A stretch of 64,000 nucleotides of DNA from assembly GCA_035999765.1 (NCBI GenBank), contig CP108521.1:930001-994000 (forward strand). Direction: 5' to 3'. The notes beneath the pieces were generated by a model. That model saw nothing but the letters and a program-made list of their open reading frames with translations, had not been told where the DNA came from and did no database searches. Below, piece after piece: positions 1 through 20,502 of the stretch. Positions within the stretch are counted from its first letter, which is position 1; each line of letters starts with the position of its first letter. This stretch comes from Streptomyces sp. NBC_01231 (GTDB taxonomy: Bacteria; Actinomycetota; Actinomycetes; Streptomycetales; Streptomycetaceae). The translations under genes were made by a program, and so were the position numbers.

Positions 1-2713
1 CCTTCTCGAGGCCCGCGAGGAACGCGTCCATGACCTCGCGGTAGCGCTCCAGCGAGAAGATCAGCGTGACGTTGACGCTGATGCCGAGGCCCATGACCTC
101 GCTGATCGCCGGGAGACCCGCCTCGGTGGCGGGGATCTTGATGAGGGTGTTGGGACGGTCCACCAGCCAGGCCAGTTGCTTGGCCTCGGCCACGGTTGCG
201 GCCGTACCGTGCGCGAGACGCGGGTCGACCTCGATGGAGACCCAGCCGTCATGGCCGTCGGTGGCGTCGAAGACCGGCCGCAGGATGTCGGCGGCGTCGC
301 GGACGTCCGCCGTCGTGATCATGCGGACCGCCTCGGAAACCGTCACCCCACGCAGCGTCAGGTCACGGATCTGGTCCGCGTAGTCGTCGCCTCTGCCGAC
401 CGCCTGCTCGAAGATGGTGGGGTTGGTGGTCACGCCGACCACATGCTTGTGCTTGATCAGTTCGGCGAGGTCGCCGGAGGTGATCCGCCTGCGGGAGAGG
501 TCGTCCAGCCAGATCGACACGCCTTCCTCGGAGAGGCGCTCGAGGGGGTCGCCGGTCATGGAAGCCGCTTCTCCTACCTGACGGCGTTTGCCGTCGCCGT
601 CGCCGTCGCTGTCCAGAGCAGGGAGAGTGTCATGGACTGCGGCGATCGATTCCCGGGCCTGGGCCGCCACGTTCTCGGCGGTGAAGCCGAACTCCTGGAA
701 GAGCACCTTGCCGTCCGCCGAAGCACCGAAGTGCTCCAGGGAAACGATGCGTCCGGCGTCTCCCACGTACTTGTGCCAGGTGAGACCGATCCCGGCCTCG
801 ACCGCGACACGCGCCTTCACCGCGGGCGGCAGCACACTCTCGCGGTACAGCGCGGGCTGTTCCTCGAACCACTCCACGCACGGCATGGACACGACCCGCG
901 TCGGCACACCGTCGGCTTCGAGCCGCTCACGGGCCTCGACGGCGACGTGCACCTCGGAACCGGTCGCGACGAGGATCGCCTCCGGTGTCCCGGTGGAGGC
1001 CTCGAACAGGACGTAACCGCCCTTGGCCGCGTCCTCGTTGTGCTGGTACGTCGGCACGCCCTGACGGGTCAGCGCGAGGCCGTGCGGGGCTCCCTTGCCG
1101 AAGACCTTGGTGTAGCGGCGCAGGATCTCGCGCCAGGCGATCGCGGTCTCGTTGGCGTCGGCCGGGCGGACCACGTTCAGGCCCGGGATGGCGCGCAGGG
1201 AGGCGAGGTGTTCGACGGGCTGGTGGGTGGGGCCGTCCTCGCCCAGGCCGATGGAGTCGTGCGTCCACACGTAGGTGACCGGCAGGTGCATCAGCGCGGA
1301 CAGGCGCACGGCGTTGCGCATGTAGTCGGAGAAGACGAGGAAGGTGCCGCCGTAGATACGGGTGTTGCCGTGCAGGGCGATGCCGTTCATCTCCGCGGCC
1401 ATGGAGTGCTCGCGGATGCCGAAGTGGATCGTGCGGCCGTACGGGTTCGCCTCCGGCAGCGGGTTGTCCCCGGGCAGGAAGGACGACGTCTTGTCGATCG
1501 TGGTGTTGTTCGAGCCGGCCAGGTCGGCCGAGCCGCCCCACAGCTCCGGGATCACCGCACCCAGCGCCTGAAGCACCTTGCCCGAGGCGGCACGGGTGGC
1601 GACACCCTTGCCCGTCTCGAAGACCGGAAGCTTGTCCTCCCAGCCCTTGGGCAGCTCACCCGCGGCGATCCGGTCGAACTCGGCGGCGCGCCCGGCGTTG
1701 TTGTTGCGCCACTCCTGGAAGGACTTCTCCCACTGGGCCCTGGCCTGACGGCCCCGCTCACTCAGCGCGCGGGTGTGGGTCAGGACCTCGTCGGCGACCT
1801 CGAAGGTCTGCTCGGGGTCGAAGCCCAGGACGCGCTTGGTGGCCGCGACCTCGTCGTCGCCCAGCGCGGAGCCGTGCGCGGCCTCGGTGTTCTGGGCGTT
1901 GGGGGCGGGCCAGGCGATGATCGAGCGCATCGCGATGAAGGAGGGCCGGTCCGTGACCTGCCTGGCGGCCTCGATGGCGTCGTAGAGGGCGTGCGGGTCC
2001 AGGTCGCCGTCCGGCTTGGCGGCCACCCGCTGCACGTGCCAGCCGTACGCCTCGTAGCGCCTGACGGTGTCCTCGGAGACAGCCGTCTCGGTGTCGCCCT
2101 CGATGGAGATGTGGTTGTCGTCCCACAACAGGACGAGGTTGCCGAGCTTCTGGTGACCCGCCAGCGAGGACGCCTCCGCGGAGATGCCCTCCTGCAGACA
2201 GCCGTCACCGGCGATCGCGAACACGAAGTGATCGAAGGGCGAGGTGCCTTCAGCAGCCTCCGGGTCGAACAGACCGCGCTCGTAACGGGCGGCCATCGCC
2301 ATGCCCACCGCGTTGGCCACCCCCTGCCCCAGCGGGCCCGTCGTCGTCTCCACACCCGTGGTGTGGCCGTACTCCGGATGCCCCGGCGTCTTCGAACCCC
2401 ACGTCCTGAACGACTTCAGGTCCTCCAGCTCCAGACCGAAACCGGCCAGGTACAGCTGGGTGTAGAGGGTCAGGGACGAATGGCCGGCAGACAGCACGAA
2501 GCGGTCCCGGCCCACCCAGTCGGCGTCCGCCGGGTCATGCCGCATCACCTTCTGGAAGAGGGTGTACGCGGCAGGCGCCAGGCTCATCGCCGTACCGGGA
2601 TGGCCGTTGCCGACCTTCTGTACGGCATCGGCGGCCAGGACGCGGGCGGTGTCGACGGCCCGCTGATCCAACTCGGTCCACTCGAGATCTGCGGTGGTCG
2701 AGTACGGATTCAC
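1..2713 (-). CDS. Transketolase-transaldolase fusion protein (partial, C-terminus off the left edge)
   Basis: The frame opens with GTG at 2713, seven bases after AGGAG, and stays open to the window edge (over 900 codons). Residues 1 to about 695 are a complete transketolase: thiamine-diphosphate motif GDGCLQEG near residue 171, then the pyrimidine-binding domain with [13 protein letters not shown], and the C-terminal end [16 protein letters not shown]. Instead of stopping, the frame passes through a linker rich in Asp/Gly (SDGDGDGK around residue 702) and reaches [13 protein letters not shown] (ATG at 559), the start of transaldolase, whose Schiff-base lysine lies in [11 protein letters not shown] checked every codon between 720 and 557: none is a stop. 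Transaldolase keeps its own ribosome binding site (AGGAG about ten bases before ATG 559), so a separate Tal could also be made. The two enzymes work successively in the non-oxidative pentose phosphate pathway. A single-base indel would restore a TAG at 574-576, so sequence error must be excluded. Confidence 0.85.
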
Positions 2714-2735
2714 GCGTGAGCTCCTGTGTCTGTGT

Positions 2736-2845: not shown

Positions 2846-4003
2846 CTACTTGCCCCAGAGCTCGCGGTACGCCTCGCGGTATCCCGCCGGGTCCCAGGAG
2901 GAGCCACCGCTGCTGTTGGCCGCCGTCGTGATGTGCACCGGCGCGATGTAGCCGCTGGCGGGCTTGCCGGCGAAGGAGCGGTTGAACTCGTCGACGATCT
3001 GCCAGCCCTGCTCGGACAGCGGCTCGGGCACCGTGGCCGCCTGGAACGCCCTGCTGTTGATGCGCTGGAAGGCCGACGGGTCGCCGTCGCCCGCGCCGAT
3101 GTTGAACGGGGCACCGTTGCCCTGCTTGCCACCGGCCCGCAGCGCGGGTGCCGCGTCGGCGAAGTACAGGTCGTTGATGGCCACCGAGTACGTCCACTTG
3201 GAGCCGAAGCGGGACAGCAGCGCGGAGACCTCCTGCGGGGTGCGGCTGCTGGCGTCGGCGATCGGGATGTTGGAGGTGGACAGCACCTTGGTGTCGGAGC
3301 AGGTGGCGAGCTCCTTCTCGATCAGGTCCGACTTGCCCTTGGCGAACGGGATGGAGGCGTCGGTGAAGACCACCACGCCGGCCCGGCCGTTGGACTGACT
3401 GATGATCCAGTCGGCGCTGATCTTCGCGACGTCCTCGACCTTGGTGGTGATGTTGCTGAAGAGCTTCGGGTCCTTGCTGGGGCCGGGGGTGCCGACGGCG
3501 TGCCAGCCGATGAGCGGGATACCGGCGGCGTCGGCCTGCGCGACCTGCTGGGCGGTCGACTTGGGGTCGAAGCCGGACAGGACGATGCCGTCGGGCTTCA
3601 CGGCGACGGCCTGGCTGACCGCGGCCTGGATACCGGCCGGGGTGCCCTGGCCGTCGATGATCCTCACCTTCCAGCCGATGGTCTTGGCGGCCTCCCGGAC
3701 TCCGTCGGCGGCGCCCGCGACACCGGGGTTGGTCATGCTCTGGGCGACGTAGACGATCGTCTTGCCTGCGACCGCCTTGGGGCCGGTCTTCGGCCCGCCC
3801 CAGGGGGCGTCGACGGCCTCGGCGCCCGCAACCGCCTTCTTCGCCGTCGCCAGGACGGCCGGGCAGCCGGCTTTCGAGGATCCGCCCACGGCGGTGGAGC
3901 CGGTGCTCGCGGAACCCCGGGTGCAGCCTGCGACGGAAGCGGTGATCACGGCCAGGGCGGCCACGGCTCTGATGGTTGCCTTGCGGGTGGGGTGGTACGA
4001 CAC
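2846..4003 (-). CDS. Sugar ABC transporter substrate-binding lipoprotein (RbsB-like)
   Basis: A 385-residue extracytoplasmic binding protein. The N-terminus has two positive charges, a hydrophobic stretch and a lipobox ending SVAGC at Cys27, so the protein should be lipid-anchored outside the membrane. The remainder is a type 1 periplasmic-binding fold of the ribose/galactose class (IVYVAQSMTNPG near residue 85, then AVKPDGIVLSGFDP). The start is GTG at 4003, seven bases after AAGGAG. It is the last gene of a three-gene operon with permease and ATPase, the reverse of the common Rbs order. The ligand is unknown; because the importer sits beside idonate/gluconate genes I infer a sugar acid or its lactone rather than ribose. 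Confidence 0.85.
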   Translation of the reverse strand: MSYHPTRKATIRAVAALAVITASVAGCTRGSASTGSTAVGGSSKAGCPAVLATAKKAVAGAEAVDAPWGGPKTGPKAVAGKTIVYVAQSMTNPGVAGAADGVREAAKTIGWKVRIIDGQGTPAGIQAAVSQAVAVKPDGIVLSGFDPKSTAQQVAQADAAGIPLIGWHAVGTPGPSKDPKLFSNITTKVEDVAKISADWIISQSNGRAGVVVFTDASIPFAKGKSDLIEKELATCSDTKVLSTSNIPIADASSRTPQEVSALLSRFGSKWTYSVAINDLYFADAAPALRAGGKQGNGAPFNIGAGDGDPSAFQRINSRAFQAATVPEPLSEQGWQIVDEFNRSFAGKPASGYIAPVHITTAANSSGGSSWDPAGYREAYRELWGK

Positions 4004-4102: not shown

Positions 4103-5326
4103 TCAGGGAGTGCGCGGCGCGACACCGTCGGACGAACCGGTGACGGACGAACCGGTGACGGCCGGCGTCGGCGGCTCCGTCGCCGGGCCAGTGCCGGGAG
4201 CGGAGGGTGAACGCGGGGTGGCACTGGCCCCGGCGCGCAGTCGGCGGCGGGCGGAGTAGCCGGCCAGGCCCACCGCGAGGAGCAGCGTGCCGCCGTTGAA
4301 CAGGGACGTGGCCCAGAACTCGGCGCCGAGTTGCTGGATGCCGGCCAGGCCGATGGCGAGGATCGCGACGGCCACGACGGTTCCGGCGGCGTTGGCGCGG
4401 CCCGGTTTGATGGCGGTGGAGCCGAGCAGGGCGCCGACGAAGGCGGGCAGCAGGTAGTCCATGCCGACGCTCGGGTTGCCGATCTGCTGCTGCGCGGCGA
4501 GCAGGACGCCCGCGAAGCCGACGACGAGACCGGAACCGGCGAAGGCGTAGATGCCGTACCGGCGGGTGGGGATGCCGACGAGGTCGGCGGCGCGGGCGTT
4601 GGAGCCGATGACGTAGAGGTAGCGGCCGAGCGGCAGGCGCTCCAGCAGCAGCCACAGCAGCACGGCGAGCGCGAGGACGTAGAAGGCGGGGACCGGCAGG
4701 CCGAGGAACTCGGAGTCGTACAGGTCGGTGAAGGCCGGGGGCAGTCCGTGCGGGCCGGGCACGATCCGGGCGCCGTCGGTGATCCAGCCGGTGCAGGCGT
4801 ACAGGAGGCTGCCGGTGCCGAGGGTGGCGATGAAGGAGTCGATCTTGGCGAACTCGACGAGCAGACCGTTGAGTACGCCGACGATGCCGCCTCCGAGGAT
4901 GACGGCTACGCAGGCGATCGGCCAGGACCAGCCGCTGTTCACGATGAGTTGCATGGCCAGGACGTGGGCGAAGCCGAGTCCGTAGCCGACGGAGAGGTCG
5001 AACTTGCCGGTGACGATGGGGATCATCGCGCCGAGGGCGAGGATCGCGGGAATCGACTGGTTGGACAGGATCGACGAGGCGTTGTCCATCGTCGGGAAGG
5101 TGTCCGGCAGGGCCAGCGCGAAGATCACGAACAGCAGGACGGTCAGGCCGAACAGGCCGTAGGTGCCGATAAGGTGGCCGCCGCGCACCCGGGCGGCGAT
5201 GGCGCCGCGGTCCGCACCCTTGTCGGTGCCGCCGGGTGGCTGCTTGCGCGACCCGCGGGGTATTCCTTTGGGCCGCTCGGCGGGCCCGCCGGCCTGCCGG
5301 CGGGCGGATTCGGTCTCGGTGGCCAT
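4103..5326 (-). CDS. Sugar ABC transporter permease (RbsC-like)
   Basis: A 407-residue integral membrane protein of the branched-chain/ribose permease class (BPD_transp_2). A charged cytoplasmic N-terminus of about 50 residues is followed by roughly ten hydrophobic segments; typical family stretches are PIVTGKFDLSVG near residue 105 and LGSTAIKPGRAN near residue 305. The last 50 residues are a Pro/Thr/Ser-rich cytoplasmic tail containing a VTGSSVTGSS duplication. The ATG at 5326 overlaps the ATPase stop codon (TGATG), so the two are translationally coupled. Confidence 0.88.
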   Translation of the reverse strand: MATETESARRQAGGPAERPKGIPRGSRKQPPGGTDKGADRGAIAARVRGGHLIGTYGLFGLTVLLFVIFALALPDTFPTMDNASSILSNQSIPAILALGAMIPIVTGKFDLSVGYGLGFAHVLAMQLIVNSGWSWPIACVAVILGGGIVGVLNGLLVEFAKIDSFIATLGTGSLLYACTGWITDGARIVPGPHGLPPAFTDLYDSEFLGLPVPAFYVLALAVLLWLLLERLPLGRYLYVIGSNARAADLVGIPTRRYGIYAFAGSGLVVGFAGVLLAAQQQIGNPSVGMDYLLPAFVGALLGSTAIKPGRANAAGTVVAVAILAIGLAGIQQLGAEFWATSLFNGGTLLLAVGLAGYSARRRLRAGASATPRSPSAPGTGPATEPPTPAVTGSSVTGSSDGVAPRTP

Positions 5327-6915
5327 CAGTTGTCCGCCGTTCCGGTCAGCGCCGGCATGGCCGACGCGGCGTGGGTGAGTTCGGTGACGGTGAGGGCCTC
5401 ACCGCTGAGTTCGGCGGTCACGTGACCCCGTACGAAGACCAGGGCGCGGTGACACACGTCGGCGACTTCCTCGAAGTCGGTGGAGATGAGGAGGACCGCG
5501 AGTCCCTGGGCGAGCGCGTCGTCGAGCAGGCGGTAGATCTCCGCCTTGGCACCGACGTCGACTCCCGCGGTCGGCTCCTCCAGGATCACGACGCGCCTGC
5601 TGAGGCGCAGCCAGCGGCCGATCATGACCTTCTGCTGGTTGCCTCCGGAGAGGGTCGCGATGGGTGCCTCGGGGTTGGCCGGGCGTACGCCGAACCTGTC
5701 GACCAGCGAGCGCGCCGCGGCGCGCTCGCGGGACGGGCTGATCCAGCGCCACGGGGAGCGGCTGTCGGCCCGCGGGTTGGCCAGGAAGTTCTCCCTGACG
5801 GTGAGTTCGAGGGCGCAGCCCTCCTCCTGGCGGTTGCTGGTGACGAAGCCGATGCCCGCGTCGACGGCCGCGGCGGGCGAGCCGGGCCGGTACGGCCTGC
5901 CGTCGAGCAGTGCCCGACCGTCCTGGATCGGCCGGGAACCGGCGAGGGCACGGCCGAGGTCCATGTGGCCCGCGCCGGTGAGGCCGACCATGCCGAGGAC
6001 CTCCCCGGCCCGCAGCTCCAGGTCGATGGGGCCCGCGCCGTCGGTGGTGACGCCGGTGAGGCGCAGCACGGTCGGGGCCTCGCCGGTGGGGGCCTTGGGT
6101 CCGGGCTCGGGGCGATGGCTCTCCGCCTCGTGGCCGACGATGTCGCGCACGATGCGGTCGGGACCGTGCTCGGCGAGGCGGCCCTCACTGATGAGGTGAC
6201 CGTCGCGCAGGACCGCGAAGCTGTCGGCGACCTGGTAGACCTCGTCGAGCCGGTGGCTGACGTAGACGATGCCGTGTCCGCGGTCGCGCAGGGTGTGCAG
6301 GACGTCGAAGAGGCGGGCGCAGTCCGCGGCGGGCAGGCTCGCGGTGGGCTCGTCGAGGACGATGAGCCGGGCCCGGGTGGACAGTGCGCGGGCGATGGCG
6401 ACGAGGGACCGCTCGGCGCGGGTGAGGTCCGCGACCGCGGCGTCCGGATCGAGGTGGCCGGCGACGATGTCCAGCGCCTCGGTGCTGCGCTCGCGGACCT
6501 GCCGCCAGGAGACGAGCCCGGCGCGGCGCGGGTAGCCGGTGCCCAGGGCGATGTTCTCGGCGACCGTCATCCATTCGACCAGACCGAGGTCCTGGTGGAT
6601 GAAGGACATCTCGGCGGAGGCGGCATCGGTGCCCAGCGGGTGGCCCGCGACGGAGACCTCGCCCTGGTCCGCTCGGTACACCCCGGCGAGGATCTTGATG
6701 AGGGTGGACTTACCGGCACCATTGTGACCCAATAGGGCCAGGATGCTGCCGGAGTGGATGTCGAGGTCGACATCGGCGAGGGCGAGCGTGCCGCCGAACC
6801 GCTTGCGCAGCCCGCGGATGCTCACCAGGGGTCGGTGTGGTTCCTGAGTGCCGTTCGGCGGACCGGGGTCCGGATCGGTTGCTGTGTCAGCTGTGTCATC
6901 GGGAGCGTCATACAC
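5326..6915 (-). CDS. Sugar ABC transporter ATP-binding protein, two nucleotide-binding domains (RbsA-like)
   Basis: A 529-residue duplicated ABC ATPase. The first domain has Walker A GHNGAGKST and Walker B IVLDEPTASL, but its signature reads DLTRAERSLVAIARAL instead of an LSGGQ form. The second has a degenerate Walker A (GLTGAGHMDLG) and a canonical signature LSGGNQQKVMIGRWL followed by LEEPTAGVDVG. This asymmetry is usual for the RbsA/XylG/MglA family. An in-frame codon lies further upstream, but I chose GTG 6915 because GGAG lies six bases before it and homology starts soon after. It is the first gene of the importer operon; a promoter with an overlapping operator-like motif lies about 70 bases upstream. 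Confidence 0.88.
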   Translation of the reverse strand: MYDAPDDTADTATDPDPGPPNGTQEPHRPLVSIRGLRKRFGGTLALADVDLDIHSGSILALLGHNGAGKSTLIKILAGVYRADQGEVSVAGHPLGTDAASAEMSFIHQDLGLVEWMTVAENIALGTGYPRRAGLVSWRQVRERSTEALDIVAGHLDPDAAVADLTRAERSLVAIARALSTRARLIVLDEPTASLPAADCARLFDVLHTLRDRGHGIVYVSHRLDEVYQVADSFAVLRDGHLISEGRLAEHGPDRIVRDIVGHEAESHRPEPGPKAPTGEAPTVLRLTGVTTDGAGPIDLELRAGEVLGMVGLTGAGHMDLGRALAGSRPIQDGRALLDGRPYRPGSPAAAVDAGIGFVTSNRQEEGCALELTVRENFLANPRADSRSPWRWISPSRERAAARSLVDRFGVRPANPEAPIATLSGGNQQKVMIGRWLRLSRRVVILEEPTAGVDVGAKAEIYRLLDDALAQGLAVLLISTDFEEVADVCHRALVFVRGHVTAELSGEALTVTELTHAASAMPALTGTADN

Positions 6916-6975
6916 GGACTTCTCCGGAGGGATTTGCCAGCCGAGGACCACTTCATCGGCTCGACCAGAATCCTG

Positions 6976-7002
6976 TACAGTCACCAGCATATTGGTCAAT
7001 AG
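6976..7002 (-). promoter_or_regulatory. Promoter of the sugar importer with overlapping IclR-type operator
   Basis: On the minus strand TTGACC (-35-like) is followed after about 18 bases by CAGGAT (-10-like). The spacer contains ACCAGCATATTGGT (+ strand, 6983-6996), a nearly palindromic motif that recurs at 7930-7943 and around 17531-17624. A protein bound there would block RNA polymerase, so I infer repression. Neither the promoter nor the binding protein has been tested. Confidence 0.5.
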
Positions 7003-7030
7003 GCTGGCTGACATTTATTGCCCCAAAGTT

Positions 7031-7104: not shown

Positions 7105-7899
7105 TCAGCCGACGCCAGGTGGCGCCCCCTGCGGGAGCATGGGGTTCTCCAGACCTGCCGCCACGGCTCGCAGGTCCTTCAGCAGGGCCTCGCGGAACTC
7201 GTCGTCGAGCCGGGCCTTGAGCACGGTGACGCTGATCGCGAAGGGCGCCGAGTCCGTACGGAAGCCGTTGACCGGTACGGCGAGGCAGAGGATGCCCGCC
7301 GTGGCCTCCTCGTCGTCGATCGCGTAACCGCGCTCCCGGGTCTCGGCCAGGTCCGCCATCAGGGCGGGCACGGAGGTGAGGGACCGCTCACTGAGCGCGG
7401 GCAGGGTGCGGCCACGCAGCCGGTCCTCGGCCACCGCCGGGTCGAGGGTCGACAGGATCGCCTTGCCCGTGGCCGTGCAGTTCGCGGGGAAGCGGTCGCC
7501 GATGTTGGCGGTCAGCCGCAACGGCTGCGCGCCGTCGTAACGCCCCAGATAGAGGACGTCGAGGCCGTCCAGTACGGCCACCCGCGCGGTCTCCCGCGAG
7601 ATGTGGGCACTGCGCCGGCACAGCTCGTAGAAGTCACGCAGCTGATCGACGGTGGCCAGGTAGCGGCCGCCGAGCTCCACGAGCTTGCGTCCCAGGCTGA
7701 AGCCCGAGCCGTTGCGCGTGATCATGCCGGCCGCCTCCAGCGAGGCGCACAGATTGCCCGTCGAGGACTTCGGCAGGCCGAGGGCGCGCGCGATCTCACT
7801 CACCGACAGCGGGCGCCCCTCTGCCTCGCCGAGTGCGTCGAGGATGGCCACGGCCCGCGTCACAGCGGGGACGAGACTACCCGGGTCACTTGCGCTCAC
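7105..7899 (-). CDS. IclR family transcriptional regulator
   Basis: A 264-residue regulator with an N-terminal winged helix-turn-helix (VTRAVAILDALGEA, then SVSEIARALGLPKSSTGNLC, about residues 10-60) and a C-terminal IclR effector domain with ANCTATGKAILSTLDP and YAIDDEEATAGILCLAVPV. GTG 7899 is preferred to GTG 7911 because GGAG lies six bases before it. It stands between the importer operon and the divergent cyclase operon, the expected place for the pathway regulator. A repeated motif in its own upstream region, before the importer and before the gluconokinase/dehydrogenase pair suggests autoregulation and control of the whole sugar-acid island. The effector is probably a pathway intermediate (inference). 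Confidence 0.87.
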   Translation of the reverse strand: MSASDPGSLVPAVTRAVAILDALGEAEGRPLSVSEIARALGLPKSSTGNLCASLEAAGMITRNGSGFSLGRKLVELGGRYLATVDQLRDFYELCRRSAHISRETARVAVLDGLDVLYLGRYDGAQPLRLTANIGDRFPANCTATGKAILSTLDPAVAEDRLRGRTLPALSERSLTSVPALMADLAETRERGYAIDDEEATAGILCLAVPVNGFRTDSAPFAISVTVLKARLDDEFREALLKDLRAVAAGLENPMLPQGAPPGVG

Positions 7900-7929
7900 C
7901 AGCAACTCCACCCATCATTCTGTTCGTCG

Positions 7930-11097: not shown

Positions 11098-12006
11098 ATG
11101 CAGGTAGGAATCGTCGGCCTGGGACGCATGGGCGGCAACATGGCCGCCCGCTGGCGGGACCGCGGCCACGAGGTGCTCGGCTACAGCCGTACCTCCCCCG
11201 ACCGTGACGCCGACTCCCTGGAGGAACTCGTCGCGAAGCTCGCCGGCCCCCGCGTGGTGTGGCTGATGCTCCCCGCGGGCGACCCGACCCGCGAGGCCCT
11301 GCGGCAGCTCGCGGAACTGCTGTCACCCGGTGACGTGATCGTCGAGGGCGGCAACTCCCGCTTCAGCGACGACACCGAGCACGCCAGGATGCTCGCCGAG
11401 CATGGCATCGGCTACGTCGACTGCGGTGTCAGCGGCGGCGTCTGGGGCCGGGAGAACGGCTACGCCGTGATGTGCGGCGGCCAGGACGAGCACGTGGAGC
11501 GCGTCTGGCCGCTGCTGGAGTCGCTCGCCCCCGACCAGGACGGGCTGTGCCACGCGGGCCCGGTCGGCGCCGGTCACTACTCCAAGATGGTCCACAACGG
11601 CATCGAGTACGGCATGATGCAGGCGCTCGCAGAGGGCTACGAGCTGATGGAGGCCAGCGAGTACGTGCCCGACGTGCCCAAGGTGCTCGCCTCCTGGCGG
11701 CACGGCACGGTCGTCCGCTCCTGGCTGCTCGACCTCCTGGTGCGTGCACTGGAAGAGGACCCGGGCCTGGCCACCCTCTCCGGCCGGGTCGACGACTCGG
11801 GCGAGGGTCGCTGGACGGTCGAGGAGGCGGTACGTCTCTCCGTGTCCGCCCCGGCCATGACCGCCGCCCTCTTCGCCCGCTTCGCCTCCCGCAAGCCGGA
11901 CGCCGACCAGCTCAAGGCCCTCGCGGCGATGCGCCGGCAGTTCGGCGGCCACGCGGTGCACGGCGCCGGCGTGGGCGCGGACGCGGGCGGAACGAAGGTG
12001 GGCTGA
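11098..12006 (+). CDS. gnd: 6-phosphogluconate dehydrogenase, decarboxylating (short GndA/YqeC type)
   Basis: A 302-residue enzyme of the short, usually NAD-preferring form, against about 470 residues for the classical long form. Visible motifs are the NAD fingerprint VGIVGLGRMGGNMA, VIVEGGNSRFSDD near residue 81, VDCGVSGGVWGRENGYAVM near 105 and GAGHYSKMVHNGIEYG with the catalytic lysine and substrate-binding residues. It oxidatively decarboxylates 6-phosphogluconate to ribulose-5-phosphate. That is the product step of gluconate catabolism once the gluconokinase at 15812 has acted, and feeds transketolase/transaldolase. It follows the preceding gene by six bases and closes the operon. Confidence 0.88.
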   Translation: MQVGIVGLGRMGGNMAARWRDRGHEVLGYSRTSPDRDADSLEELVAKLAGPRVVWLMLPAGDPTREALRQLAELLSPGDVIVEGGNSRFSDDTEHARMLAEHGIGYVDCGVSGGVWGRENGYAVMCGGQDEHVERVWPLLESLAPDQDGLCHAGPVGAGHYSKMVHNGIEYGMMQALAEGYELMEASEYVPDVPKVLASWRHGTVVRSWLLDLLVRALEEDPGLATLSGRVDDSGEGRWTVEEAVRLSVSAPAMTAALFARFASRKPDADQLKALAAMRRQFGGHAVHGAGVGADAGGTKVG

Positions 12007-14437: not shown

Positions 14438-15864
14438 GCGACGGGGGCCGCCGGGGGCTGGCGCTGCTGGTCGCCGGGGCCTTCTTCATGGAGAACCTGG
14501 ACGGCACGATCATCTCGACGGCCGCCCCCGACATGGCCGCCTCCTTCGGGGTGCGGCCGGCCGACATCGGCATCGCCATGACGGCGTACTTCGTCGCGCT
14601 GGCCGTGTTCATCCCGGTGAGCGGCTGGGCCGCCGACCGTTACGGCGCACGCCGGGTCTTCGTCTGGGCGATCGCCGTGTTCACCCTCGCCTCGGCGCTC
14701 TGCGCGGCGGCGGACGGGCTGGCCGAGCTCGTCGTGATGCGCGTCGCGCAGGGCATCGGCGGGGCGATGATGGTGCCCGTCGGCAGGCTGGCGGTGCTGC
14801 GCACCACCAGGAAGTCGGATCTGCTGCGGGCGATCGCCTGGCTGACCTGGCCCGGTCTGCTGGCTCCTGTCCTGGCACCCGCGCTGGGCGGGCTGTTCAC
14901 GACGTACGCCTCATGGCACTGGATCTTCCTGGTGAACGTGCCGTTGGGCGTGCTGGCGCTGCCGCTCGCCCTGCGGCTCGTCCCCGATCTCCGGCAGCCG
15001 GAGCGACCTCGACTCGACTGGGTGGGCTTCGGGGTCGGCGGCGCAGGGCTGGCGGCACTGGTGCTGGGCCTGGAGCGGCTCGGGGATGCGCCCGCCGCGT
15101 GGGGATCGGGCGCGTCCTGGCTCACCGCGGGCGTCGCCCTCTGTTTGGTGACGGTGCGTCATTTCCGGCACAGCCGGAGCCCGTTGCTGGACCTCGACGC
15201 CCTGAGGGTGGACACCTTCCGGGTGTCCAACGCGGGTGGCGCCCTGTTCCGTGCGGCGGTCACCGCCGTTCCGTTCGTGCTGCCGCTGATGTTCCAGGAG
15301 GCCTTCGACTGGAGCGCCGCGACCGCCGGTGTGGTGCTCATCGCGGTGTTCGCGGGCAACGTCGCCGTGAAGCCGTTCACCACCCCGCTGCTGCGCCGCT
15401 ACGGCTTCCGGACGGTGCTGCTGGTGAACGGAGTCGCGACGGCGGTGACCTTCGTGCTGTGCGGGCTGCTCGGGCCGCACACGCCGCCGACCGCAGTGGT
15501 GTGCGTGCTGTTCCTGAGCGGAGTGTGCCGGTCCGTCTCGCTCAGCGCGTACGCGACGATCGGCTTCGCAGACATCGCACCGGAGCGCAGCAGCGACGCC
15601 AACGCGCTCTCCAGCACGGTGCAACAGCTCGCCGCCGGCCTCGGAGTCGCCTTCGGCGCCCTCGCGCTGCGCGCGGCGGGCCCGGTCGCGCCGCTCCTCG
15701 GACTGGCGGGCCCCACCGGCCCCTACCGGGTGGCGTTCGCGCTGCTCGCCGTGGTTCCCCTGGTCACGGTCGCGGAGGCCGCACGGCTACGGCGGGACGC
15801 CGGGGCGGTGGTCACCGGTGCGGCCCATGCACCTCACGCAGGAGCTGGTACAGGTGTTCGCTGA
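14434..15864 (+). CDS. MFS transporter, DHA2 (multidrug) family
   Basis: A 476-residue membrane protein starting with GTG in an ATGA-type overlap with the oxidase stop. The N-terminal half has ENLDGTIISTAAPDMA (the D in helix 1 typical of DHA2) and the loop motif GWAADRYGARRVF; there are many hydrophobic segments (12-14). It probably exports a small molecule by proton antiport. Translational coupling to the multicopper oxidase suggests that the exported compound is a product or substrate of that oxidase (inference). Its last 53 bases overlap the convergent gluconokinase gene. Confidence 0.85.
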   Translation: MSDGGRRGLALLVAGAFFMENLDGTIISTAAPDMAASFGVRPADIGIAMTAYFVALAVFIPVSGWAADRYGARRVFVWAIAVFTLASALCAAADGLAELVVMRVAQGIGGAMMVPVGRLAVLRTTRKSDLLRAIAWLTWPGLLAPVLAPALGGLFTTYASWHWIFLVNVPLGVLALPLALRLVPDLRQPERPRLDWVGFGVGGAGLAALVLGLERLGDAPAAWGSGASWLTAGVALCLVTVRHFRHSRSPLLDLDALRVDTFRVSNAGGALFRAAVTAVPFVLPLMFQEAFDWSAATAGVVLIAVFAGNVAVKPFTTPLLRRYGFRTVLLVNGVATAVTFVLCGLLGPHTPPTAVVCVLFLSGVCRSVSLSAYATIGFADIAPERSSDANALSSTVQQLAAGLGVAFGALALRAAGPVAPLLGLAGPTGPYRVAFALLAVVPLVTVAEAARLRRDAGAVVTGAAHAPHAGAGTGVR

Positions 15865-17299
15865 GTCCGCGGGTCTCCGCCAGCCGCCGTGCCGCCACCG
15901 GATCGGGGGTCACGGTGCGGTGGGCGCGCGCGCCGGGCATCGGAGAGGTCAGCGAGGGCAGGGCGCCGAGCGCGTGCCGGGCGAGCACCGCGGCGCCGAA
16001 GCCGGAGCCCGCAGTGTCGTCGGTGATCTCCAGAGACATGTCGAGCGCGGCGGCGGCGATCTCCGCCCACAGGGTGGAGCGCAGGGCGCCGCCGGTGGCC
16101 CGCACCGAGGTGATCGGGGCGTCGGCGGCCAGCAAGGAGTCGCGTACCAGGGCGAGTTGCTGGCCGACGCCCTCGATCATGGCCCGGGTCATATGGGCCC
16201 TGCCGTGGCCGCGGCGCAGTCCGATCAGGGCGCCGCGTGCGTCCGGGTCCCACCAGGGTGCGCGTTCCCCGAGGAGGTGCGGCAGGGCGATCAGCCCTTC
16301 GGCGCCGGGCTCGACCTCGCCCGCCTCCTTCAGCAGGTCGCCCACGTCGACCCCGCCGAAGGACTCGGCCGCCCACTGCGCGACGACCCCGGCGTTGCTG
16401 ACCGCCCCGCCGAGTACCCACAGCCCGTCCGCGAGGTAGTAGCAGAACACCCGGCAGCGTTCGTCCACGCCGGGCCGGTCGCGTACGACACGGAGGGCAC
16501 CGCTGGTGCCGAGCGACAGCGCGGCCGTGGCCGGCGCGGTGGCTCCGACGGCGAGGTTGGCCAACGGGCCGTCCCCGGCGCCCGCCACCACGGGCAGCCC
16601 GACGGGCAGGCCAAGGACGGCGGCGACGTCGGGGAGGAGCGTGAACCGGGCGGTCGGCGGCACCAGTTCGGGCAACCGGTCGGCGCTCACCCCGGCGATG
16701 TCGAGGGCGGGTCCGTGCCATCGGGTGGTGCGCATGTCCAGCAGACCGGTGGCGGAGGCGCAGGACAGGTCGGTGACCAGACTGCCGGTGAACCGCGAGA
16801 GGACGTAGTCCTTCAGGCCGCACCACGTGGCCGTACGCCGGACGAGTTCCGGCTCGTGTGCCGTGAACCAGGCGAGTTTGCTGAGCGGGGCCATGGAGTG
16901 CACGGGGGTTCCGGTCGCCCTGTGCAGGGCGTCGGCGATCCCGGCCGACCGCAGACCTCGGGCGATGCCGGCGGCCCTCGTGTCCGCCCAGCTCAGCGCC
17001 GGGGTCAGCGGTTCACCAGAGGAGTCCAGAGCGAGCAGGGTGTGCAGGGCCGCGCTGAAGGACAGGGCGACGACCGTGAGACCGCGCCCGGCGCAGACAC
17101 CGGCGCTCTCCCTGACCGCTTCGATCGCTCCGGCCAGCACCGTCTCCGGGTCGTGGACGGCCTCCCCGTGCCGCCCGGTGCGCAGGGGCGCGGGACGCTC
17201 GACGGTCGAGACCACCCGGTGGGCACCGTCCACCGCGACCACTTTGGTCGCGGTGGTACCCAGGTCGATCCCGAGCACCACCTGGGCCTCGTCCTTCAT
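15812..17299 (-). CDS. gntK: Gluconokinase (FGGY family)
   Basis: A 495-residue FGGY sugar kinase: N-terminal phosphate-binding GIDLGTTATKVVAVD, then TGTPVHSMAPLSKLAWF near residue 145, which matches the PVHPMSPLxKLxW pattern of gluconate kinases, and the ATP-binding LSLGTSGALRV and GGAVSNAGVV in the C-terminal half. Reaction: D-gluconate + ATP to 6-phosphogluconate, which the dehydrogenase at 11098 decarboxylates. ATG 17299 was chosen because GGAG lies six bases before it; the GGAGAC site is itself part of a short hexanucleotide repeat (ACGGAGACGGAGAC). The long in-frame upstream extension has no homology. The 3' end overlaps the MFS gene convergently by 53 bases. A xylulokinase-like specificity is possible but less likely. 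Confidence 0.8.
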   Translation of the reverse strand: MKDEAQVVLGIDLGTTATKVVAVDGAHRVVSTVERPAPLRTGRHGEAVHDPETVLAGAIEAVRESAGVCAGRGLTVVALSFSAALHTLLALDSSGEPLTPALSWADTRAAGIARGLRSAGIADALHRATGTPVHSMAPLSKLAWFTAHEPELVRRTATWCGLKDYVLSRFTGSLVTDLSCASATGLLDMRTTRWHGPALDIAGVSADRLPELVPPTARFTLLPDVAAVLGLPVGLPVVAGAGDGPLANLAVGATAPATAALSLGTSGALRVVRDRPGVDERCRVFCYYLADGLWVLGGAVSNAGVVAQWAAESFGGVDVGDLLKEAGEVEPGAEGLIALPHLLGERAPWWDPDARGALIGLRRGHGRAHMTRAMIEGVGQQLALVRDSLLAADAPITSVRATGGALRSTLWAEIAAAALDMSLEITDDTAGSGFGAAVLARHALGALPSLTSPMPGARAHRTVTPDPVAARRLAETRGLSEHLYQLLREVHGPHR

Positions 17300-17530
17300 C
17301 ACTGTCTCCGTCTCCGTTTCCGTGACTGTCCCGACTCGGTGTGCTGTTCCGTGGGTTCGGATGGATGCCGGCCCCGCGCCCAGGGGCAGGGGGCAGGGTG
17401 CGGGGCCGGCTGTCTCAGAGCCCGCCGCCTCGGGGCCGGGCCACCGAAGGGGCGGTCGGATCGCGCAGCGGGCGGGTAACACGCCGTACATCTGCGGACC
17501 TCCAGGACGGTAACAGTATGTGAGACTCAA

Positions 17531-17642: not shown

Positions 17643-18593
17643 GTGTCAGGTCATCCGGAGGTGGGCGTCGCCGGCCTCGGAGTCATGGGTTCGGCCATCG
17701 CCCGCAGACTGCTGCGGCGTGAACGCACCGTGCGGGTCTACGACGTCCGACAGGACGCGATGGCGGAGCTCGTCAGGGACGGGGCGGCCCCGGCGGACTC
17801 GGCGGCGCAGCTCGCCTCGTCCTCCGTGGTGATCCTCTCCCTCAACACCGCCGACATCGTCGAGCAGGTGGTCTTCGGCCCCGACGGGGTCCTGACCGCG
17901 GCACCCGAGGGCGTACTCGTCATCGACATGTCCAGCATCGACCCCGGGCGCACCCGCGACTTCGCCGAACGCGCGGCGAAGCTCGGCGCCGGCTGGGTCG
18001 ACGCTCCCCTCTCGGGCGGCGCGCCGGGCGCGGAACGCGGCGAGCTGACACTGATGCTCGGCGGCGAGGACGACCAGGTGGAACGGGCGCTGCCCGTGCT
18101 CGGCGCCCTCTCCTCCCAACTCACCCACCTCGGCCCGGCCGGCTCGGGGCAGCTGGTCAAGTCCGTCAACCAGGTGCTGGTCGGCTGCGGATTCGCCGCC
18201 CTCGCCGAGGCCGCCGCGCTGATACGGGCGGCCGGTCTGCCGGCACGGCAGGTACAGGCGGCGCTCACCGGAGGAAGGGCCGACTCGGCGCTGCTCCAGG
18301 AGTTCTTCGTGAAGTTCGCCGAACTCGATCTCACGCCCACCGGACGGGTCAGCAACATGGTCAAGGACCTGGAGGCGGCCCGCGACTACGCGCGCTCGGC
18401 GGGAGTGCCACTGCCGGTCACCACCGCCGTCTCCGAACTCCACCGCTGGCTGGCCGCGGCGGGCCATGGCGACGCCGACAACGCGGCGCTCATGCATTAC
18501 TACGGAACCGGAAGCGGAACCGACACCGGCACCGGCACCGACACCGACACCGGCATTGGAACCGGAACCGGTCCGACGGGAGGCCAGTCATGA
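17643..18593 (+). CDS. NAD(P)-dependent beta-hydroxyacid dehydrogenase, second copy
   Basis: A 316-residue paralogue of the 10156 protein: fingerprint VGVAGLGVMGSAIARRLL, substrate loop VDAPLSGGAPGAERGELTLM and catalytic lysine in LVKSVNQVLVGCG. GTG 17643 follows AAGTAGG. The body ends near MHYYGTGSG; the last 25 residues are a low-complexity Gly/Thr/Asp tail encoded by a degenerate hexanucleotide repeat. It opens an operon with the IdnO- and IdnD-like genes and overlaps the next gene by four bases. By family it oxidises or reduces a short beta-hydroxy acid such as threonate or tartronate semialdehyde; the substrate is not visible. Confidence 0.85.
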   Translation: MSGHPEVGVAGLGVMGSAIARRLLRRERTVRVYDVRQDAMAELVRDGAAPADSAAQLASSSVVILSLNTADIVEQVVFGPDGVLTAAPEGVLVIDMSSIDPGRTRDFAERAAKLGAGWVDAPLSGGAPGAERGELTLMLGGEDDQVERALPVLGALSSQLTHLGPAGSGQLVKSVNQVLVGCGFAALAEAAALIRAAGLPARQVQAALTGGRADSALLQEFFVKFAELDLTPTGRVSNMVKDLEAARDYARSAGVPLPVTTAVSELHRWLAAAGHGDADNAALMHYYGTGSGTDTGTGTDTDTGIGTGTGPTGGQS

Positions 18594-19375
18594 CGGTTTC
18601 AGCCAAGGGTCCTTCCCTGTTCGACCTCTCCGGGCGGTTGGCCCTGGTCACCGGCTCCAGCAAGGGCATCGGATTCGCCCTGGCTGCGGGACTGGCCGAG
18701 GCGGGCGCCGAACTCGTCCTCAACGGCCGCGATCCCGAGGCCCTGGAACGCGCTCGTGCCGAACTCGCCGAACGCACCGGGACCACGGTGCACGCCGTGC
18801 CCTTCGACGTCACCGACGAGACGTCCGTGCAGACGGCGGTCCAGGAGATCGAGAACGGGATCGGCCCGCTGGACATCCTGGTCAACAACACCGGCGTACA
18901 GCACCGCGAACCACTCCTCCAGGTATCCGCCGAGAACTTCGAGCGGGTCCTGCACACCAACCTCACCAGCGCCTTCCTGGTCGGCCGCACGGTGGCCGCG
19001 GGCATGGTCGGGCGCGGCCGCGGAAAGATCGTCAACATCTGTTCCGTACAGACCTGGCTGGCCCGCCCCGGCATCGCGGCCTACGCGGCCTCCAAGGGCG
19101 GCCTCGCGATGCTGACCCGGGGCATGTGCGCGGAGTGGGCCGGATCGGGGCTGACGGTCAACGGACTGGCACCGGGGTACGTGGTCACCGAACTGACCCG
19201 CCCGCTCGTCGACGACCCGGACTTCGACTCCTGGATCCGGGGCCGCACCCCGGCCGGGCGCTGGGCCTCGGTCGAGGATCTCGTCGGCACGCTGGTGTGG
19301 CTCGCCGCCCCCGCGTCGGACTTCGTCAACGGCCAGGTGATCGCCGTCGACGGCGGCCTGACCGCGGTCATCTGA
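18590..19375 (+). CDS. idnO: Gluconate 5-dehydrogenase (IdnO-like SDR)
   Basis: A 261-residue classical short-chain dehydrogenase. Cofactor motif LVTGSSKGIGFALA, NNTGVQHREP (usually NNAG), catalytic Ser in CSVQTWLARPG and Tyr/Lys in YAASKGGLAMLTRGMC. The C-terminal segment RTPAGRWASVEDLVGTLVWL followed by SDFVNGQVIAVDGG is very like enterobacterial IdnO, which interconverts 5-keto-D-gluconate and D-gluconate. ATGA overlap with the gene before; the L-idonate dehydrogenase follows after 14 bases. The product gluconate would be phosphorylated by the divergent gluconokinase. Confidence 0.85.
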   Translation: MTVSAKGPSLFDLSGRLALVTGSSKGIGFALAAGLAEAGAELVLNGRDPEALERARAELAERTGTTVHAVPFDVTDETSVQTAVQEIENGIGPLDILVNNTGVQHREPLLQVSAENFERVLHTNLTSAFLVGRTVAAGMVGRGRGKIVNICSVQTWLARPGIAAYAASKGGLAMLTRGMCAEWAGSGLTVNGLAPGYVVTELTRPLVDDPDFDSWIRGRTPAGRWASVEDLVGTLVWLAAPASDFVNGQVIAVDGGLTAVI

Positions 19376-19389
19376 GAGGGACCGAGAAC

Positions 19390-20502
19390 ATGAACGCAGC
19401 AAACTCATCAAGCTCGAACTCATCAGACTCGGCCTCATCGGCCTCATCGACGATGCGAGCGGTCGTGGCCCACGGGGCGGGCGACCTGCGCCTGGAGGAG
19501 CGGCCGGTGCCGGAGCCCGGCCCCGGCGAGGTGGCGGTCGACATCCGCTACGGCGGGATCTGCGGCTCCGACCTGCACTACTGGCGACATGGCGCGGTCG
19601 GAGAGTTCCGGCTGCGCGAACCACTGGTCCTCGGTCACGAGATCGTCGGCCGGGTACGCGCGGCGGGCCCCGGCACGCAGGCCCCGCCGCCCGGGACCTC
19701 GGTGGCCGTGCACCCCCTGGCCTCCTGCGGCACGTGCCGACAGTGCGCAGCGGGACGGCGCAACACCTGCCTGGACACCGGCTATCTCGGCAGCGCCGCC
19801 CGAAACCCCCACGTCCAGGGCGGGTTCGCCGATGTCCTGGTCGTGCCCGCCGAACGGGTCCTGCCGCTGCCCGAGGGCCTTGACCTGCGGCTCGCCGCGC
19901 TCGCCGAGCCGGCTGCGGTCGCCTGGCACGCGGTACGGCAGGCCGGCGACGTGCGCGGCAAGCGGGTCCTGGTCACCGGTGCCGGACCGATCGGCTGCCT
20001 GGTGGTCGCGGCCCTGCGCGCCGCCGGGGCCGGTGAGATCACCGTGACCGATGTGCACGAGGCGCCGCTGGCCGTCGCCAAGCAGGTGGGCGCCGACTCG
20101 ACCGTACGGATCGGCGGTCCCTCAAGTGGCGGGGACGGCCTGGAAGGACTGGCGGCGGACATCGCCATCGAGTCCTCGGGCAGCCCCGCCGGACTGCGCA
20201 CCTGCGTGTACGGAGTGGACCGGGGTGGTCTGGTGGTGGGGCTCGGCCTGCTCCCGCCCGGGGACACCCCGGTCGCAGCGAACGCGCTGATCACGCGGGA
20301 GCTCCGGCTGGTCGGCTCCTTCCGTTTCGACACCGAACTCGGCGAGGTGCTCCGGGCGTTGGCCGACGGCCGCCTTCCGGTCGACCCGGTGGTGACCTCC
20401 GTACTCCCCGTGACACGCACCGCCGAGGCCTTCGAACTGGCAGCCGACCCGGCGCGTTCCTGCAAGGTGCTCCTCGACTTCGCGGGTCCGACAACAACCT
20501 GA
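19390..20502 (+). CDS. idnD: L-idonate 5-dehydrogenase (IdnD-like zinc alcohol dehydrogenase)
   Basis: A 370-residue zinc-dependent medium-chain dehydrogenase. The catalytic-zinc segment GGICGSDLHYWRHGAVG and PLVLGHEIVG closely follow E. coli IdnD; the four structural-zinc cysteines are in CGTCRQCAAGRRNTC. The coenzyme fold GAGPIGCLVVAALRAAG lies near residue 200. It oxidises L-idonate to 5-ketogluconate, the substrate of the upstream IdnO. ATG 19390 gives a 21-residue Ser/Asn-rich leader before MRAVVAHG; the internal ATG at 19453 is an alternative start where homology begins, but the better ribosome binding site (GAGAGG) precedes 19390. It ends the operon, followed by a strong hairpin. Confidence 0.85.
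   Translation: MNAANSSSSNSSDSASSASSTMRAVVAHGAGDLRLEERPVPEPGPGEVAVDIRYGGICGSDLHYWRHGAVGEFRLREPLVLGHEIVGRVRAAGPGTQAPPPGTSVAVHPLASCGTCRQCAAGRRNTCLDTGYLGSAARNPHVQGGFADVLVVPAERVLPLPEGLDLRLAALAEPAAVAWHAVRQAGDVRGKRVLVTGAGPIGCLVVAALRAAGAGEITVTDVHEAPLAVAKQVGADSTVRIGGPSSGGDGLEGLAADIAIESSGSPAGLRTCVYGVDRGGLVVGLGLLPPGDTPVAANALITRELRLVGSFRFDTELGEVLRALADGRLPVDPVVTSVLPVTRTAEAFELAADPARSCKVLLDFAGPTTT

Follow-up and report, generated by a model that had tools for sequence, protein, structure and literature searches.

The window analyzed here (the whole stretch of 64,000 nucleotides, genome bases 930001-994000 of one 11.34-Mb contig) begins with a reading frame on the minus strand that starts at GTG 2713, shows no stop up to the left edge of the window, and ends at a stop at genome position 929444, for a total of 1089 codons. 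The gene and the elements of its junction are as follows.

1 to 2713, continuing leftward to genome 929444, minus strand: fused transketolase-transaldolase gene, GTG start at 2713, 1089 amino acids in total
644 to 2713, minus strand: transketolase part, residues 1-690, DNA nearly identical to the housekeeping tkt at genome 2508258-2510324
551 to 643, minus strand: linker, residues about 691-721, from the junction comparison and AlphaFold
590 to 607, minus strand: three GACGGC hexanucleotides encoding Asp-Gly-Asp-Gly-Asp-Gly, read in the sequence
574 to 576, minus strand: TAG, out of frame in the window; the equivalent triplet is the in-frame stop of tkt in G108 and S. flaveus
571 to 575, minus strand: AGGAG, ribosome-binding site of tal, 11 nt before the tal ATG
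557 to 559, minus strand: ATG, presumed ancestral start of tal, in frame within the fusion (residue 719)
1 to 559, minus strand: transaldolase part within the window, the rest lying at genome 929447-930000

An earlier note on this DNA had described a transketolase running in one frame through an Asp/Gly linker into a transaldolase, together with the out-of-frame TAG, the AGGAG, and the ATG, and all of these are as it described them. The protein contains the Pfam domains Transketolase_N (residues 16-355), Transket_pyr (370-534), Transketolase_C_1 (565-678), and TAL_FSA (734-1078), all above cut-off. It also belongs to two NCBIfam families, matching the full models of transketolase TIGR00232 (residues 19-689, 798.1 bits versus a cut-off of 682.25) and transaldolase TIGR00876 (residues 731-1077, 422.6 bits versus 233.75). 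The transketolase part aligns along its length with PDB 3rim, and a motif search found the thiamine-diphosphate and substrate motifs of the enzyme, to which we presumptively assign individual roles; the GDG search pattern failed in 5 of 10 fusions, and the DG pair was nonetheless invariant in the alignment. In the transaldolase part, the lysine K859 of the LIKIPAT motif, which we take to be the catalytic (Schiff-base) residue, was invariant in all 10 fusions, and the motif aligned with its counterpart in PDB 3r5e. An AlphaFold model built on 10 sequences had a mean pLDDT of 59 for the whole fusion, with a poorly modelled TKT half, a well-modelled TAL part (blocks of pLDDT 75-97 except at the end), and values of <50, with no confident structure, for linker residues 692-720. 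This prediction fits a flexible tether joining two folded enzymes.

The length of the open frame was dropped as proof of the fusion, since the opposite strand is itself open over 1059 codons. Chance is excluded instead by the domain content and by an open junction common to two related species (see below), and the fusion is real and probably yields a bifunctional enzyme, perhaps together with free transaldolase. The antisense frame (plus strand, window 1-2719, the 1059 codons including a part outside the window) is probably a high-GC shadow frame and not a gene.

Three tkt-tal pairs are present in the genome, and the fused one, the only pair in the window, is an accessory third copy. The locus, which could be taken from the earlier note for the housekeeping tkt-tal genes, is thus corrected to an accessory paralogue, with two unfused pairs located elsewhere. 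Unfused actinobacterial pairs, including these two, have the same families in the same gene order and differ from the fusion by a stop codon between the genes. In this genome, a frame resembling glucose-6-phosphate dehydrogenase by eye comes after each of the two pairs, and neither is preceded by the transporter island found next to the fusion, whose genes are listed below.

2846 to 4003, minus strand: substrate-binding protein of a sugar ABC transporter (Peripla_BP_4), immediately upstream of the fusion
4103 to 5326, minus strand: ABC permease, ribose/arabinose type, below named-transporter cut-offs
5326 to 7014, minus strand: ABC ATPase, ribose/arabinose type, below named-transporter cut-offs
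7105 to 7911, minus strand: IclR-family regulator, below named-regulator cut-offs
11098 to 12006, plus strand: 6-phosphogluconate dehydrogenase (decarboxylating), above the cut-offs of NF007161 and TIGR00872
12350 to 14437: multicopper oxidase, best match O-aminophenol oxidase PhsA (715.2 bits versus a cut-off of 950)
15812 to 17530, minus strand: FGGY kinase, best match gluconokinase (347.7 bits versus a cut-off of 648.55)
18590 to 19375, plus strand: SDR oxidoreductase, gluconate 5-dehydrogenase models among the best matches, all below cut-off
19450 to 20502 (start approximate), plus strand: Zn dehydrogenase, best match L-idonate 5-dehydrogenase (273.7 bits versus a cut-off of 469)

Facing away from the fusion are a cyclase-family gene, a hydroxyacid dehydrogenase, and a hydroxyisobutyrate-dehydrogenase-like gene, followed by the 6-phosphogluconate dehydrogenase. 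The island genes appeared in largely the same order in seven of the eight genomes fetched (S. stelliscabiei, G108, G009, S. tuirus, S. cellulosae, G125, and G140), while in the eighth, S. turgidiscabies, the contig starts at the ABC gene. In some of the seven islands, no match was found for the multicopper oxidase, the MFS transporter, gnd, or the kinase; S. tuirus has the oxidase and MFS genes in swapped order, and the stretch fetched from G009 stops short of the last island genes. In S. tuirus (L184/L209), the binding protein, the ABC ATPase, and the FGGY kinase were each matched in two pieces, and this island may be decaying or carrying sequence errors. Where the binding protein of a transporter locus was less similar (G177 C36, G014, G054, G228, and G239 C317), the fetched stretches gave no match to tkt or tal. 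We infer that the island degrades a gluconate- or idonate-like acid via 6-phosphogluconate and ribulose-5-phosphate.

To compare the accessory locus among relatives, a pattern search was used that found 33 stretches, 30 of which were searched further (L120, L132, and L142 were excluded); the junction or the tal start was read in 12 Streptomyces loci and one Actinomyces MAG, and the others were compared by tblastn alone. Eleven accessory tkt-tal junctions were read in DNA, seven of them fused and four separate, the latter in G108, S. flaveus, S. turgidiscabies (TGA further upstream), and S. tuirus (ATGA overlap). In G108 and S. flaveus, the accessory tkt TAG falls inside the ribosome-binding region of tal (CAGTAGGAG), and tal is in another frame. 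Looking at sister strains, as the earlier note had proposed, revealed a stop-free junction of the same build as that of the window in S. europaeiscabiei and S. fulvoviolaceus, and a fusion that recurs at the locus. Compared with the separate genes, insertions before the TAG and one spacer base place the two parts in one frame in these two species and the window, and in S. fulvoviolaceus the position of the TAG reads CAG. The distance between the GFT and IWLD motifs is 142 nt in G108 and S. flaveus, with separate genes, versus 147 nt in S. europaeiscabiei and S. fulvoviolaceus and 174 nt in the window, all three divisible by three; the window linker is thus 27 nt longer, in frame, than those of the other two. 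These three fusions clustered together at 97/93 in a transaldolase tree built on 165 TAL columns, with the linker excluded.

The remaining fusions have a different anatomy. Other linkers join the two parts in S. stelliscabiei, S. resistomycificus, and S. phyllanthi, all three of which have lost the tal ATG; an in-frame GTG remains in S. resistomycificus, preceded by AGGA at a distance of one base, and S. phyllanthi, like the window, has a GTG inside the TAL part. The fusion of S. stelliscabiei is complete. P0003 (a 20-member cluster) has exactly the same TAL part and was for this reason omitted from the tree. G009 is fused with the ATG present and without an AGGA-type site, and P0002 and P0005 are fused at the protein level. 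On the tree as drawn, at least three changes between the fused and separate states are needed, of which the well-supported branches force only one. Since the two fused groups differ in junction anatomy, at least two origins of the fusion in this locus seem likely, although a single origin with later splitting may also explain the pattern. Fused, overlapping, separate, and tkt-less versions of one locus in related species form a natural series in which to look for effects of fusion.

The tkt-less version is found in S. cellulosae, S. sp. SA15, and S. aurantiogriseus, which have tal without tkt at the accessory locus; in the S. cellulosae island (L211/L075), gnd was also unmatched. Neither tkt nor tal was found in the fetched stretches of G125, G140, G291, and one G239 locus. 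Some of the fused copies are damaged or incomplete. The accessory tkt of G009 has an internal frameshift (L078, about 7728-7740), with the junction to tal still open, and the fused TAL of S. fulvoviolaceus (L191) is short by about 34 residues, in frame, and possibly inactive. Four of the fused species (S. europaeiscabiei, S. fulvoviolaceus, S. resistomycificus, and S. phyllanthi) are seen from the junction side alone, their contigs breaking off within tkt; contigs stop within the accessory tkt in L185, L186, L188, L190, and L191, probably because near-identical tkt copies break short-read assembly. S. sp. 7-21 was not counted as an accessory copy, as it groups with canonical genes, and a 1093-codon frame in the Actinomyces MAG G408 was rejected as a fusion because no transketolase precedes tal.

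The two halves of the gene show different histories. Over the last 460 codons of tkt (1380 nt), compared in six genomes, the DNA identity between the accessory gene and the housekeeping gene of the same genome was 98.6% in the window, 98.8% in G108, and 99.5% in both S. stelliscabiei and S. turgidiscabies, but lower in G009 (92.9%, over the longer of its pieces alone) and in S. tuirus (89.0%); the window set against three other genomes gave 85.7-87.8% in seven comparisons. Paralogues within a genome were thus more alike than copies between species in four of the six genomes, the pattern of concerted evolution, and in a tkt tree the copies of these four paired with each other, while the tree did not resolve those of G009 and S. 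tuirus. In blocks of 60 nt, identity between accessory and housekeeping genes was mostly 93-100% inside tkt and dropped at the junction in all six genomes. Lower tkt blocks were found in the window (80% near the tkt end), in G108 (87% in the last block), and in G009 and S. tuirus (several blocks at 58-92%), while the two canonical copies in the genome of the window, taken as a control, gave 57-95% over the same stretch. The window TAL contains a second tract, about 420-900 nt past the IWLD motif, with 97-100% identity.

These identities suggest that gene conversion overwrites the tkt half and leaves the fusion point in place. Repeated conversion would explain the tkt pattern better than repeated duplication, given the syntenic location and the split of accessory TAL from three canonical-type rows at 100/98 in the transaldolase tree. 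Conversion running past the junction would restore the canonical stop, and selection may block it; alternatively, the flanking DNA, most of TAL included, may be too dissimilar to pair. Such a half-converted gene would be a clean case of gene conversion stopping near a domain boundary.

These observations can be put together as follows. The starting point would be an accessory tkt-tal pair that closed a transporter operon within a sugar-acid catabolic island and became one gene. Its ancestor would have resembled G108 and S. flaveus, with the tkt TAG overlapping the ribosome-binding site of tal and tal in another frame, and small indels ahead of the TAG and within the spacer, adding a net 5 nt in S. 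europaeiscabiei and S. fulvoviolaceus and 32 nt in the window over the separate relatives, would let ribosomes read through into a transketolase-linker-transaldolase polypeptide. The AGGAG and ATG that were kept could additionally start free transaldolase. The fusion would recycle ribulose-5-phosphate, produced by the 6-phosphogluconate dehydrogenase of the island, to fructose-6-phosphate and glyceraldehyde-3-phosphate. Conversion with the housekeeping tkt would keep the TKT half like the main enzyme, with the junction and the start of TAL staying lineage-specific. We regard this overall explanation, an indel-made fusion in a sugar-acid island with dual products possible and a TKT half kept by conversion, as probable; it rests on the open frame, domains, motifs, shared junctions, synteny, and identity pattern, and from these we infer the ancestral state, expression, dual products, island substrate, and role of the fusion. 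More tentatively, the recurrent fusion might be a dedicated pentose-recycling enzyme of the island, its TKT half continually rewritten from the housekeeping gene and its stop-free junction kept by selection, with one half evolving in concert and the other diverging.

The survival of the transaldolase ribosome-binding site, claimed in the earlier note, is borne out, with the AGGAG 11 nt before the ATG, the same spacing as in the housekeeping copy. The retention of AGGAG, spacing, and ATG in the window and two related fusions would suit an internal start that makes free transaldolase the main functional product, with the read-through fusion as a by-product; yet the tal ATG is absent in S. stelliscabiei, S. 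resistomycificus, and S. phyllanthi (GTGs remain in the latter two), and we consider this reading unlikely. The proposal that free transaldolase might be made beside the fusion may hold for the window, where both signals are kept, but free transaldolase is not an expected product in the three species that have lost the ATG.

When successive enzymes are fused, channelling is classically suspected, and transketolase and transaldolase act in succession, so the fusion could exist to pass erythrose-4-phosphate or sedoheptulose-7-phosphate between active sites. The recurrence of fusions with unlike linkers agrees with this purpose, but the linkers vary in length and sequence, that of P0010 being very long, and we doubt that channelling is the reason for the fusion.

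Measures of selection bear on whether the fusion is real but a nearly neutral decay stage of a redundant accessory copy, with the housekeeping enzymes doing the work. Comparing the window with S. europaeiscabiei gave a TAL dN/dS of 0.31, and four further pairs of fused genes gave 0.26-0.34, versus 0.18 and 0.23 in two pairs of separate accessory genes; the ratio was 0.29 between G108 and the window, 0.19 between G108 and S. europaeiscabiei, and 0.50 between the window and its own housekeeping copy (a mosaic comparison), the window figures being blurred by conversion in part of its TAL. The fused TAL therefore appears to be under purifying selection, perhaps somewhat relaxed. Values somewhat above those of the separate copies and the repeated absence or damage of tkt or tal in the island would be expected of decay. 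With two other tkt-tal pairs in the genome, the locus is dispensable. However, the persisting purifying selection (0.26-0.34), the recurrence of complete fusions, and the conservation of the motifs make such a fate quite improbable.

Least of all do we credit a base-calling or assembly indel joining genes that are separate in the organism, as the earlier note feared: the frame hinges on a single base next to the TAG, several look-alikes in the database (P0001, P0004, P0014, P0016, P0025, P0028, and P0036) resemble frameshift artefacts by eye, and a stop-free pair in G338 has a garbled tkt tail, but the independently sequenced S. europaeiscabiei and S. fulvoviolaceus show the same open junction in other assemblies, the extra 27 nt of the window preserve the frame, the tal ATG is lost in other species, and the longest run of identical bases in the linker is three, all of which makes sequencing error a very unlikely source of the fusion.

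Two adjacent genes with a stop between them, which the earlier note had given as the usual state, were indeed the rule among the matches listed from 384 genomes of the class and 392 of the genus. In the class sample, searched with P0043, only the window's own match among those listed was full-length without a stop. In the genus sample, two of the matches listed were full-length and stop-free, the window and G338; the latter was set aside, as its tkt tail is read in another frame than the related copy, and the fusion of G009 was hidden from this count by its tkt frameshift. The proposed search for a transketolase plus TAL architecture in a protein database (the best 120 of about 8000 scored candidates, in each of two listings) recovered complete-looking fusions. 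Among the matches listed, those of the Streptomyces type were P0002, P0003, and P0005, and the distant ones P0010, P0013, P0043, P0044, P0048, P0049, P0051, and P0052, whose different linkers suggest, at the sequence level, that they arose separately. The look-alikes named above, with scrambled middles by eye, were not counted. The annotation of P0002, P0003, and P0005 names transketolase alone, and the transaldolase half is easily overlooked in such cases.

Among known systems, the bifunctional transaldolase/phosphoglucose isomerase (NF007080) is likewise a pentose-phosphate fusion with a related transaldolase, but there the transaldolase is N-terminal and its partner an isomerase; the window protein falls outside this family, scoring 428.5 versus a cut-off of 712 and matching only model positions 3-372 of 949. 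According to PMC11237513, the N-terminal part of Tkt is fused to ribulose-phosphate 3-epimerase in Thaumarchaeota; both that fusion and ours join transketolase to an enzyme of the non-oxidative branch, but there the partner is another, the transketolase partial, and the hosts archaea. Repeated independent fusions of pentose-phosphate enzymes, G6PD-6PGL and G6PD-6PGD, are described in PMC3148214 and differ from ours in belonging to the oxidative branch and to eukaryotes; the terms transaldolase and transketolase are absent from the portion of that text searched. Other pentose-phosphate fusions are described in PMC4470864. A limited phrase search found no paper on a complete transketolase joined to a transaldolase, and the searched portions of PMC4470864, PMC3148214, and PMC11237513 contain none. 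The closest counterparts in arrangement are database proteins P0010, P0013, P0043, P0044, P0048, and P0049, in which transketolase is followed by transaldolase in one protein of 1081-1211 amino acids, 58-62% identical to that of the window and with other linkers; one of them, P0013, is named transketolase/transaldolase by JGI.
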